DNA from: Lachnospiraceae bacterium | GTDB lineage: Bacteria; Bacillota; Clostridia; Lachnospirales; Lachnospiraceae | Length of the DNA stretch: 64,000 bases | Assembly (NCBI GenBank): GCA_011959805.1 | Contig: BLMC01000008.1 | Span: forward strand, 1-64,000 | Direction: 5' to 3' | Program-made: the position numbers and the translations under genes | Part shown: positions 53,748 through 59,281 of the stretch, one piece after another | Layout of the letters: every line of letters starts with the position of its first letter | How positions within the stretch are numbered: the first letter of the stretch is position 1 | Notes under the pieces: model-generated | What the model was told of the DNA's origin: nothing | The model's input: only the letters and a program-made list of their open reading frames with translations | Database searches by the model: none

Positions 53748-54371
53748 TTACAATTCGTGACGAAACAGCTCTGTACCATTGCTTGTCCTATAAACAATCT
53801 GCACTACAAGATCGGAAATACCAATTGTTTCTTTCAGCTCATCACGCATTGGCTGAAACTGATCTTTAAGTCCATCAAATTGTTGCTGCATTTGTGTTTC
53901 CATTTCACTTTTCTGCTCATCTGTCAAATCACTGCCGTCTGTGCCAAGAGCCTCTGCCGAAAGTACAAAAACCATAGACAATGTATTGCCTTCTCCCTCA
54001 AACTCTGTTGTCATCATTCCATTCGACATTGCGCCAATTGTTGTATTAAGCACCTCCACATATTGAGCAGCTTCCTCAGAGCTTACCCATTCCTCAACAG
54101 TCATGCCACCCTCTGCATTCGCATTTGCTGTATCTGTCTGTGCTGTATCTTCTGTATCTGCATTTGCTGTATCTTCTGTATCTGCATTTGCTGTATCTGT
54201 CTGTGCTGTACCTTCTGTATCTGTGTTTGCTGCATCTTCTACAGTATTTGTAACTGCTGCTGACTCTGCTGGTGCCTTATCGTTATCTTTTGAACCACAT
54301 GCTGTCACTGTAAACATCATTGATGTCACAACTGCTACTGATAAAATTACATTAACAATCTTCTTTTTCAT
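53748..54371 (-). CDS. Lipoprotein with acidic Thr/Ala/Asp repeats (DUF4854-like)
   Basis: A signal peptide with lipobox VTACGS predicts lipid anchoring. After that comes a low-complexity stretch of imperfect DTEDTANA/DTANA units, then a C-terminal domain with MTVEEWVSSEEAAQYV and SMVFVLSAEALGT that resembles the DUF4854 family. I start at the ATG at 54371 after GGGGGAATTTAGG, giving 207 residues. The repeats make the antisense strand look like a cysteine-rich ORF. Confidence 0.8.
   Translation of the reverse strand: MKKKIVNVILSVAVVTSMMFTVTACGSKDNDKAPAESAAVTNTVEDAANTDTEGTAQTDTANADTEDTANADTEDTAQTDTANANAEGGMTVEEWVSSEEAAQYVEVLNTTIGAMSNGMMTTEFEGEGNTLSMVFVLSAEALGTDGSDLTDEQKSEMETQMQQQFDGLKDQFQPMRDELKETIGISDLVVQIVYRTSNGTELFRHEL
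54112..54243 (-). repeat. In-frame short tandem repeats in the lipoprotein gene
   Basis: The DNA contains imperfect repeats of GCATTTGCTGTATCT and TTCTGTATCT-type units (plus-strand sense). They encode the Asp/Thr/Ala-rich spacer behind the lipobox. Such tracts can change in length by slippage or recombination. Confidence 0.75.
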
Positions 54372-54563
54372 CCTAAATTCCCCCTTCTTATGAAAAATCA
54401 TAAATAATTGTTTAACGTCTTAACAATTTAGCAGTTTATCACTGTTTGATTAATGTGTCAACTTCCAAAACATATTTTCGGAGTGTTGTTTAGAATAACA
54501 ATAATTTCCTCCAAATTTTAGTGCACTTTATACAGTTTTAAATAAACAATAGTTTAAAATAAA

Positions 54564-54622: not shown

Positions 54623-57600
54623 TTATTCTTCTGGTTTGATAGGAACATATTCTACACTACTACTGTGATTAAATGGAAGCGTAATTATCCCGCTCCCCTC
54701 TGTAGCCTCCTCAATCCCCTGATGCATTAATGCTATTTTACCGCAACTATCCAGCAGAAAATAATGCCTAGATGTCCATGTATGGTCTTTCTGAAGCCGA
54801 AGTTCTGTGATAACATATCCCAATGTATCGGCATGCCCCAAAAATCCAGGGACATATGTCTTTAAAAATACAACTGGCGTCTTTTCATTCTGAAAAGTAA
54901 TTATATTGCATCCACTAATGGCATCTACAGCAATCTTTTCTCCAGAAGTTTTATTTTGTATCTCATTTTTCAATTCAACCTGATTTTGGTCATATAGTAA
55001 AGTTAGTGCATCCATCATAATTGTGGCTACAGTCTGACACGATTCCCCTTCTCCAATCTGAATCAAAAGTAGTGGTTCCTTTTCCTCTGGTTTAACATAA
55101 GTGCGAAAAATAGAAAATCCGTTTTCTTCTCTATAACCATCTGGCAATGGAATCTGTTCACCTGTTTTTGTATTTGTCACTTTTAACGCATATCCTCCAT
55201 CACCACCATTATATTTTAAATCCATTAATTCAATTTGCTCCTCTATGCCATCCCCATCCAAGTCAAGTTTTTGTGGAAAGCCCGCATTAAACGCAAATTC
55301 ATGGTGATTTGGGAAAATCGCTTCAAGCTGTTTCGCATCTTTCTGCGCAATTTCTCCCACACTTTGACTCGTAATCTCATATGGGACAATAGAATCTATA
55401 TCTGAAGCCTTTGCATTTTCTGTGCTTGGAACCCAGATACCATCTGTTCCATAAGGCTGTATCATCTGGATCGTTACCGAACTTCCATCCTCATAAAAAT
55501 CAAATGTCACAGTACAGTTGGAACTATCTGTATTAGATTTTGTCACACGCGTTCCAACTTTATTGGGATTGTTCAATAGATTCAATAGATAAATCGCTGC
55601 GGAATCTGGTTCAAACAACTTTTTATACCAATCGTTGGTTCGATTCTCTTTTGCATTTCTATTGAGAGCTTCTCCCGCTCCATTAAAGGAATAATAATCC
55701 ATCATTGTACCCGTAATACCCTCTGGATAGGCACGATTAAATTCTTCCGCAATACAGATTGCATTCATAAATTCTATTGTCTCTGATACAATAATACCTT
55801 TCTCCCCTTCCATTTCAAAGGTGAGAAATTCACGCCATACAGTCACATGTGGGTCAGATGACCATGCATAATACAATATTTCTGCGGAATGTTCTGTCAT
55901 GCTCACAATGCGATAATTGCGTGCAGTCGCATTATCTTCATTCTCTCCTCCCCAAGGCCACGGACTCGACCAGCCAAACGATACACTTTCTTCCTCATTA
56001 TCAAACGTTTGACTTAACAGCTCTCTTTCCAAAAGATGCGCCTGCACCTGATTACTGGCAAATTTTAGAATAGTCTTCGTATCACGGTTACAAAATGCTT
56101 GTGCCCACTGCTCAATCATTTCTCTTGCATTTATTGTGGACTCTTGTTTATACATGCTAGGCACTAGCGCTTCAAGTGTTGTTTCTACTCCTTTCAAGCG
56201 CTCAATAGTTGCTTTCCAATTTTGCTGTAATTGTTTTTCTTCTTTTGAGAAGGCCTGATTATCTAATGTTTCAAGTTGTTTTTGCAATATATTTTTTTCT
56301 GTCAAAATCTGTTTTTGCATTGCTTCCACATCTGTTATATTTTTCTGAAATTCCTGATTTGTTATTGTAGTGTCTTGGCGCAAATTATTGGAAATATTTT
56401 GTGTCAAAACATCTGCTTCACGCAAAAGTCTTAGTGCGTCTGTTTTCACAAAAATAGAACCGTCTATCATGAAATTATCTACATTTTGTTTTGAATCAGT
56501 CAAGAGGATTTCAGACGAATTTTTAGCATCAAATAACAAAGTACCATAATCTGTAGTAATAAATTGATAGTGATACTTTTGGTCTTCTGTAACTGCAATC
56601 AGTCGATTACCTTCAATCTCGTAATTTCCATAGGATAAATAAGAACTAAGCGCATCGTAAGAAAATGTAAATTTCCCGTTTTGGGATACTTTTAAACTTG
56701 GGATACTTTTATTTTCCTTCTGTTCATTCGACGGCAAAAAAAGACAATAATCCCCATCTATTGTGATGATTGTTTCTGCAAATTCTGTTTTATCTGTTTT
56801 CTTCTGTGTCATAAAACACACTGGAACAATCATACATACCAATATTCCTACCACCAAAATCCAAAAGGTAGGTTTTTTATAATGCAGCACATTTTTCACG
56901 CGCTCTTTGACACTAACTTCCCCAAAAGCAATTGGACATGCTGCAATCATGCAGCGATTGACTGCGCTGTTGAGAAGTGCTTGAGAATATGCCTTTTTAT
57001 GTTCCACACCAAGTTCACGGATAACACACTCATCACAAATCAACTCAATGTCCTTACAGAGTATAATATAGGCAATCCACACACAAGGATTAAACCAATA
57101 AATTGATAGAAGCACAAATCCAATAGGTTTTATTAAATAATCTTTTCTCTTTCTATGTGTCAATTCATGTCGAATCACATAGGGAAGTTCCTCGTTGGAA
57201 ATACTGTTTGGAATATAAATACGCGGAAAAATAACCCCAAATAAAAATGGACTTTCAATCGCATCACTTCGATAAATTTTTACAACGTTCTTTCCTTTGT
57301 ACCCATTATCTAGTACAATTTCTACTGGCACAGACAGTTTGACACGGCTTCTAAGACGCAACCAGCTAAACAACATATAACCAAACATCAATATCATACC
57401 GCCAAGCCAAAATCTCGTCCATATTTCCACTCTAGTAATTGGTTTATGTTTGTGATTCTCTTGCATAGGCGTATTTTCATATGGAATTGATGAATTATTT
57501 GATTGCTGTTTTTCTAACATGGTTAAATTTATATCGGGCTGCACTGTTTGGTAAATATAGTTCTCTGCCATTTGTGTATTTGGAATCAAACTAAATATAG

Positions 57601-57766
57601 ATTCAACTGAAAATGGAACCACCAAACGGATTCCAACCAACAGCCACAAGAAACTCCGCATAGATTTTGGTGCTTTTCGCAACAGAAATCGCACCAGTAA
57701 AACTGCTAAAATAAGATAACTTGCTGAGCTACTCATATGAAAAATATTGATAAATAGTTTCTCCAT
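54623..57766 (-). CDS. BlaR1/MecR1-type M56 metalloprotease with large extracellular region
   Basis: Residues 1-330 hold four membrane segments and an M56 peptidase with the zinc motif HELTH near residue 200. M56 proteases of this kind cleave a BlaI-type repressor when they sense a signal. The region after the last membrane helix is about 700 residues long and lacks the SxxK penicillin-binding sensor of BlaR1. It contains beta-like segments and a calcium-type DLDGDGIEE motif. The signal sensed is therefore unlikely to be a beta-lactam bound in the BlaR1 way. It starts 33 bases after blaI. Confidence 0.9.
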   Translation of the reverse strand: MEKLFINIFHMSSSASYLILAVLLVRFLLRKAPKSMRSFLWLLVGIRLVVPFSVESIFSLIPNTQMAENYIYQTVQPDINLTMLEKQQSNNSSIPYENTPMQENHKHKPITRVEIWTRFWLGGMILMFGYMLFSWLRLRSRVKLSVPVEIVLDNGYKGKNVVKIYRSDAIESPFLFGVIFPRIYIPNSISNEELPYVIRHELTHRKRKDYLIKPIGFVLLSIYWFNPCVWIAYIILCKDIELICDECVIRELGVEHKKAYSQALLNSAVNRCMIAACPIAFGEVSVKERVKNVLHYKKPTFWILVVGILVCMIVPVCFMTQKKTDKTEFAETIITIDGDYCLFLPSNEQKENKSIPSLKVSQNGKFTFSYDALSSYLSYGNYEIEGNRLIAVTEDQKYHYQFITTDYGTLLFDAKNSSEILLTDSKQNVDNFMIDGSIFVKTDALRLLREADVLTQNISNNLRQDTTITNQEFQKNITDVEAMQKQILTEKNILQKQLETLDNQAFSKEEKQLQQNWKATIERLKGVETTLEALVPSMYKQESTINAREMIEQWAQAFCNRDTKTILKFASNQVQAHLLERELLSQTFDNEEESVSFGWSSPWPWGGENEDNATARNYRIVSMTEHSAEILYYAWSSDPHVTVWREFLTFEMEGEKGIIVSETIEFMNAICIAEEFNRAYPEGITGTMMDYYSFNGAGEALNRNAKENRTNDWYKKLFEPDSAAIYLLNLLNNPNKVGTRVTKSNTDSSNCTVTFDFYEDGSSVTIQMIQPYGTDGIWVPSTENAKASDIDSIVPYEITSQSVGEIAQKDAKQLEAIFPNHHEFAFNAGFPQKLDLDGDGIEEQIELMDLKYNGGDGGYALKVTNTKTGEQIPLPDGYREENGFSIFRTYVKPEEKEPLLLIQIGEGESCQTVATIMMDALTLLYDQNQVELKNEIQNKTSGEKIAVDAISGCNIITFQNEKTPVVFLKTYVPGFLGHADTLGYVITELRLQKDHTWTSRHYFLLDSCGKIALMHQGIEEATEGSGIITLPFNHSSSVEYVPIKPEE

Positions 57767-57799: not shown

Positions 57800-58159
57800 C
57801 TAATCCTTATAATTGTCAATAATCTTCTGAATTTCATCAATTTCTTGTCTGGACAAATTCTTTTTTCGTGTAAATGCCGCAATAAAACTAGGAAGTGACC
57901 CTGAAAACGTTCGTTCGACAATCTCTGTACTCTCTGCTGACTGTGCATCTTCTCTGGAAACCAGCGAAGTCACGATTGCATCTTCGGATTTAATCACACC
58001 GCGCTCAGAAAGTCTTCGTATCACAGTGTATGTTGTAGACTTTTTCCACTCTAACTTTTCTCTACATAATCGAACCAATTCACTGCTTGTCACTGGCTCA
58101 TTCTCCCATAAAATCTCACAAAAACGGTATTCACTCTCAAATATTTTTGGCACTTCCAT
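57800..58159 (-). CDS. blaI: BlaI/MecI/CopY family transcriptional repressor
   Basis: The 119-residue protein has the winged-helix N-terminal domain (SSELVRLCREKLEWKKSTTYTVIRRLSERGVIKSE) and a C-terminal dimerisation part that the M56 protease would cleave. It lies directly upstream of the M56 gene and has a near-palindromic operator overlapping its own promoter, which supports autoregulation. GGAGAG precedes the ATG. Confidence 0.93.
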   Translation of the reverse strand: MEVPKIFESEYRFCEILWENEPVTSSELVRLCREKLEWKKSTTYTVIRRLSERGVIKSEDAIVTSLVSREDAQSAESTEIVERTFSGSLPSFIAAFTRKKNLSRQEIDEIQKIIDNYKD

Positions 58160-58186: not shown

Positions 58187-58229
58187 GGTCTAATGCATTA
58201 AACTCAATGTTAGTTTAACACATTAGACC
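58187..58229 (-). promoter_or_regulatory. Double BlaI-type operator
   Basis: Two related half-palindromes, GTCTAATGCATTAAAC on the plus strand and GTCTAATGTGTTAAAC on the minus strand, face each other across CTCAATGTTA-type spacer, forming one large inverted repeat. The first contains the perfect palindrome TAATGCATTA. The distal site overlaps the -10 region and the spacer of the blaI promoter, so bound repressor would block RNA polymerase. Confidence 0.7.
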
Positions 58230-58240
58230 AATGCTGTCAA
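58212..58240 (-). promoter_or_regulatory. Sigma-A promoter of blaI
   Basis: On the minus strand TTGACA (58235-58240) and TAAACT (58212-58217) are separated by 17 bases. The predicted start is near 58205, about 46 bases before the blaI ATG. Confidence 0.75.
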
Positions 58241-58486: not shown

Positions 58487-59281
58487 TTACTTTTTCATAA
58501 AATAACAGAATAACACTGAAAAAAGAATCCCTTCCAGCACAACACAAACAATCATTTCTGTCAACATTTTATAAAGTCCTGTTAAGGTAGAAAGATTTCC
58601 AAGAAGAAATAGATATCCTGCTGCCAGAGCTACTCCTGTTAGCGTTAACCCATAAATGGCTTTATGAATTCTACATCCACGAAGTCGCAAAAAATTGGAC
58701 AGAACAAAAATACCAAGCTGGGCGCCAGCTATCATTTTAAGCCATCGGTCTAAGTAAAAGCCTGTCTCCTCTAATGGTATGTTAAATATATAGTCCTCTC
58801 CTCTGCCCATTGGAATACTCCAGAAAATAATAATTGCAAAGTACACTCCAATCAACACAATGCTAATTCCAATAAAAACCCACGATAACCTTGACTTTTT
58901 AGATGGCACTATATTCCATGATGCCAAACCATATGCGATAAAAAGAAAAAATGGAAAAGACAGATACAACAAGTTAGCTCCAAGTGGCATTTGAGAATCT
59001 TGTATCGCCAAAAATCCGCCTATTATCACAATTGTCAACAATAGTATACCAAGCACTTCATTTTTCATATAGTGTTTTTTTATCTTCTTAAAATACGAAA
59101 TTTTTGTTGATTCTCCTTGCTTGTCAGTAAGTTCGACTTTCTTTAGCAACTCCAACTTTGTACGACATTGTTCGCAATTTTTCAAATGTGTATCAACAAG
59201 GTTTCTACTCTCCTCTGAACAGATTACATCCAGATACAATGGCATCAAATCTTTGATTACATTACAATCCAAATCTTTCAT
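58487..59281 (-). CDS. Zinc-finger (zf-HC2) anti-sigma factor-like membrane protein
   Basis: The N-terminal 50 residues are a zf-HC2 domain: CNVIKDLMPLYLDVICSEES then HLKNCEQC, the HxxxCxxC zinc motif that binds ECF sigma factors. After a soluble linker about six membrane segments follow (for example LGILLLTIVIIGGFLAI and LGIFVLSNFLRL). It is 264 residues. Its partner sigma factor would normally lie upstream; only a decayed remnant is found there (59282-59522), so this anti-sigma may now be orphaned. Confidence 0.88.
   Translation of the reverse strand: MKDLDCNVIKDLMPLYLDVICSEESRNLVDTHLKNCEQCRTKLELLKKVELTDKQGESTKISYFKKIKKHYMKNEVLGILLLTIVIIGGFLAIQDSQMPLGANLLYLSFPFFLFIAYGLASWNIVPSKKSRLSWVFIGISIVLIGVYFAIIIFWSIPMGRGEDYIFNIPLEETGFYLDRWLKMIAGAQLGIFVLSNFLRLRGCRIHKAIYGLTLTGVALAAGYLFLLGNLSTLTGLYKMLTEMIVCVVLEGILFSVLFCYFMKK

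Follow-up and report, generated by a model that had tools for sequence, protein, structure and literature searches.

A BlaI-paired M56 receptor protease of a Lachnospiraceae bacterium with a modular ectodomain and no recognisable penicillin-binding sensor

The BlaR1 and MecR1 beta-lactam sensors end in a C-terminal penicillin-binding sensor with SxxK, SxN and KTG motifs, and a BlaR1/BlaI pair is usually taken as a marker of antibiotic resistance. The window analysed here, positions 1-64,000 of contig BLMC01000008.1 of a Lachnospiraceae bacterium (64,000 nucleotides), encodes an M56 receptor protease of 1047 amino acids with an ATG start (54623-57766, minus strand) and, directly upstream, a BlaI-family repressor of 119 amino acids (57800-58159, minus strand). 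The protease differs from BlaR1 outside the membrane.

In a Pfam scan of the protease, PF05569 (Peptidase_M56) alone passes its cut-off (E 2.2e-49; 168.7 bits against 31), covering residues 8-292 (56891-57745, minus strand) and including an HExxH...E zinc site formed by H200, E201, H204 and E241. These residues, together with D245, are identical in 53/53 family homologues, a mixed set chosen partly by similarity to the query. While phmmer analysis against the PDB matches the protease to Staphylococcus aureus BlaR1 (8exs; 2e-6), the NCBIfam blaR1_generic profile gives 106 bits against its equivalog cut-off of 400 bits, with the match limited to residues 16-333. The repressor belongs to the BlaI/MecI family (PF03965; E 6.6e-23; 81.7 bits against a cut-off of 22.6) and is related to MecI (PDB 1okr; 4.5e-9). 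S. aureus BlaR1 cleaves itself between S283 and F284, and the bond cut in BlaI is N101-F102 (PMC9834060). The former bond aligns with A280-F281 of the window protease (56924-56929, minus strand) once the phmmer alignment to BlaR1 is shifted by hand by one residue, and Phe occupies this position in 49/53 homologues, preceded by Ala or Ser in 43/53. The latter aligns with A95-F96 of the window BlaI, and the BlaI proteins of the orthologous loci keep the bond as IAAF or VAAF. As in BlaR1/MecR1 systems, the protease is thus accompanied by an adjoining BlaI/MecI repressor with Phe at the predicted cleavage bond. Given that both expected Ala-Phe bonds are present, the cytoplasmic half of the protease should work as in BlaR1.

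The last transmembrane helix, placed by hydropathy at residues 301-319 (56810-56866, minus strand), is followed by 728 residues on the outside. The first-pass annotation had proposed that this region is devoid of a penicillin-binding protein (PBP) sensor, and this proposal is borne out. The transpeptidase profile PF00905 does not match the protease, whereas it is found in 6/53 of the homologues, with a best value of 2.1e-41 among those from the same bacterial family. SxxK strings occur in the protease only at about residues 537, 941 and 1007 and KTG at 867, and the SxxK/SxN/KTG set is not conserved in the ectodomain among the orthologues. A PBP fold with its catalytic motifs, named in advance as the finding that would overturn the proposal, was not detected by sequence profile, and the fold models (mean pLDDT 52 and 60) are too weak to exclude one by structure alone. 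These results bear on the reading in which the ectodomain is a cryptic sensor of beta-lactams or cell-wall precursors, being either a relative of PBPs that has diverged beyond the reach of profiles or a non-covalent beta-lactam binder. The combination of M56 and BlaI is common to true BlaR1 systems and the quality of the models does not allow any fold to be excluded, but the missing profile match and the unconserved motif set, as well as the fold indications for the core module discussed below, render this reading very improbable. Since a test for the sensor domain that defines the BlaR1 beta-lactam sensors showed it to be absent, the protease is not classed among them.

The accompanying premise that BlaR1-like proteases normally sense beta-lactams does not hold for this lineage. 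The STYK motif occurs in only seven of the best M56 proteins from 28 other genera, and the host genome encodes eight M56 proteins, all without a match to a PBP domain. PBP-less M56 receptors are therefore common in the lineage, which lowers the surprise of finding one here. The size of the protein is unusual but not unique, with several other Lachnospiraceae M56 frames exceeding 1000 amino acids. What is special to this protein is its size, a new core module and the clean exchange of modules among its relatives. No description of this ectodomain type was found in the openly accessible literature that was searched.

Comparison of orthologues of differing architecture was used to set the module borders, and distinguishes four modules in the ectodomain: a lipocalin-like barrel, a coiled coil, the core module (GW) and a C-terminal module. 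The barrel (residues 338-443; 56438-56755, minus strand) shows weak similarity to Lipocalin_4 (0.036), with strands predicted at pLDDT values of about 60-82, and in other genera it either directly follows the M56 domain (L047) or forms the C-terminal end of the protein (L116). The predicted coiled coil (residues 446-545; 56132-56431, minus strand) rests on a helical prediction and is poorly conserved. The GW module (residues 546-784; 55415-56131, minus strand) is characterised by FGWSSPWPW, YYAW.SDPHV and MMDY motifs and is conserved nearly as strongly as the protease domain. The C-terminal module (residues 796-1047; 54626-55381, minus strand) contains a DLDGDG loop at residues 835-840; the calcium-type loop noted by the first-pass annotation is thus present, and its D-x-[DN]-G-D-G pattern is retained in all eleven aligned C-terminal modules. 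Searches of Pfam and the PDB yielded no convincing relatives of the GW and C-terminal modules, and a profile search of the PDB with three modules was likewise without convincing relatives. The folds of the ectodomain are uncertain on account of the low confidence of the two models, and a fold search with the whole ectodomain gave no interpretable result at a pLDDT of 52.

All complete orthologues of the genus that were examined contain the GW module, while the barrel and C-terminal modules vary. The GW module recurs in other Clostridia, in other families of both the order and the class, nearly always attached to an M56 domain. Its first half may be NTF2-like, for which there is moderate support at best: the predicted order of elements is H-H-H-E-E-E-E (pLDDT mostly about 75-88), and the matches to the CaMKII hub, AtzH and Nxf1 are weak (E 0.02-0.1), with one DUF4440 match at 0.0012. 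Both the secondary structure and these fold matches point towards an NTF2-like rather than a PBP fold. In another family of the order, two proteins (L095 and L157) combine an M56 domain and a GW-type first half with a C-terminal M23-like peptidase region. GW-type first halves are also encoded without M56 in other families, in a lipoprotein-like protein (L158, 1471-2340) and a secreted-looking one (L159, 583-1815). No relatives were found in viral contigs, and matches in a plasmid search were confined to the M56 part.

Many members of the genus carry the C-terminal module, but the remaining 298 genomes of the family sample gave no match to it. Mapped onto a tree of the M56 domains, the architectures require ten changes against a minimum of five; some of these changes are artefactual, since six of the loci (L066, L068, L071, L073, L075 and L076) are truncated at a contig end or at the end of the locus. 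Complete genes lacking the C-terminal module (L063, L064, L067 and L072) nevertheless stand beside others that carry it, showing that this module has really been gained or lost within the genus.

The BlaI partner and its operator were both expected from the first-pass annotation, and both are retained. The operator is a 43-bp inverted repeat (58187-58229, minus strand; dyad with 18 pairs) made up of two TCTAATGYRTTAAA sites in inverted order, 11 bp apart. Each arm is nearly palindromic, so that the operator offers places for two dimers. It lies over the promoter (TTGACA-17-TAAACT; 58212-58240, minus strand), the -10 box of which overlaps the first operator site. In most members of the genus the operator, as GGTCTAATGYRTTAAAC-N7-GTTTAAYRCATTAGACC, precedes blaI despite the differing ectodomains. 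The full bipartite form is found in 21/38 genus genomes, once per genome, with no matches to a reversed control pattern, and wherever the blaI-M56 pair was located, its contig and position agree with those of the operator. One exception in layout is G299, where the operator precedes a SUKH-domain gene that in turn precedes blaI; in G320 the operator and SUKH gene are separated from blaI by a contig end, which would agree with that order. This SUKH/SMI1-KNR4 gene (L125, 1546-3036; probably also L138, 1-1269) would be controlled by BlaI in these genus members by virtue of its position between operator and blaI.

The search for other genes with the same operator, proposed by the first-pass annotation, identified none. 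Exact 14-mer sites in the host genome are confined to the blaI-M56 locus, and sites with up to two mismatches occur at control level (121/116 against 143/130). Six sites with one mismatch were inspected, of which five are intragenic and one (L050) is intergenic, with no persuasive target. No beta-lactamase or resistant PBP gene is encoded in the operon, and with the full operator found only at the pair itself, autoregulation is the sole visible output. What a receptor would gain from controlling only itself is not evident; either the search missed weak targets or the protease acts on further substrates, and with a host genome that is 86.5 % complete weak or missing BlaI targets are possible. 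The self-centred operator could also be read to mean that the protease is no signal receptor, its ectodomain being an envelope-anchored scaffold or enzyme whose amount alone is set by M56 and BlaI. The free gain and loss of domains fits this reading, as do the GW-type first halves of proteins that look secreted and lack M56. It is nevertheless unlikely: conservation extends to the zinc site and to the two predicted scissile bonds, and tiny, self-centred regulons also occur among Clostridium thermocellum BlaI proteins (PMC8457756).

Two neighbouring genes were also considered. Behind the protease gene, as in several relatives, is a gene for a DUF4854 lipoprotein with low-complexity TANADTED repeats (53748-54401, minus strand), whose promoter carries TTGACA-17-TAAACT boxes identical to those of blaI. 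Control of this gene by BlaI was rejected, as operator-like sequences score no higher than 0.5 in the window and 7.2 in the relatives, whereas true sites reach at least 14.6. A conserved TTGTTAA-GACG-TTAAACAA repeat downstream of the DUF4854 promoter boxes is perhaps the site of another regulator. Further along (58487-59281, minus strand) lies the gene for a membrane protein that begins with a zinc-finger anti-sigma domain (PF13490). No extracytoplasmic function (ECF) sigma gene is next to it, while an ECF sigma gene adjoins the PF13490 protein gene in a relative (L017/L139).

Compared with known systems, the pair shares with BlaR1/BlaI and MecR1/MecI of S. aureus (8exp; PMC9834060) the M56 zinc ligands, an extracytoplasmic C-terminal region and a paired BlaI, as well as, with S. 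aureus BlaR1/BlaI, Phe at P1' of both cleavage bonds, which are predicted here. It differs in the absence of a PBP-type sensor, in an ectodomain of 728 residues and four modules rather than about 250 residues, and in an operon without beta-lactamase or PBP gene and with the operator core TAATGYRTTA. The C. thermocellum BlaI proteins regulate between one and three targets, themselves among them, and bind four-protomer sites (PMC8457756). BlaI_0696 and BlaI_1845 of that species resemble the window repressor in that their regulons are very small, with their own operon among the targets, and in their four-protomer operators, but recognise GTCTAT/GACTAT repeats unlike the window operator (PMC8457756). 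Other PBP-less Lachnospiraceae M56 metallopeptidases similarly join M56 to an unrelated ectodomain, often next to a blaI gene, but their ectodomains are of different types, for example with RCC1 or M23 domains.

Taken together, the locus is best read as a BlaR1/BlaI-type signalling pair in which the sensor has been replaced, with the GW module most likely binding the outside signal, a reading to which a probability of roughly 70 % is assigned. BlaI dimers on the two sites over the promoter would repress blaI and the protease gene. An outside signal would bind to the ectodomain, most likely to its conserved GW module, the other three modules (barrel, coiled coil and calcium-loop module) being possible accessory or tuning parts. 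Binding would move the ectodomain relative to the membrane, and the cytoplasmic zinc protease would then cut BlaI at A95-F96 and release the operon. Since the outside part is a modular receptor in four pieces with no relation to penicillin-binding proteins, the protease most likely reports a surface signal other than a beta-lactam, in line with the different signal that the first-pass annotation had thought probable.

With eight such proteases in the host genome and no recognisable beta-lactam site in the ectodomain, annotation as a "beta-lactam sensor" would mislead in these bacteria. More broadly, the balance tips slightly towards M56/BlaI being a general-purpose, one-step signalling chassis in the Lachnospiraceae with interchangeable ectodomains, in which the class built on GW in this genus senses a non-beta-lactam surface ligand, and calcium-loop and barrel modules are added or dropped between close relatives. 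The genus thereby provides clean natural domain swaps with which the transfer of an outside signal through an M56 protease may be tested.
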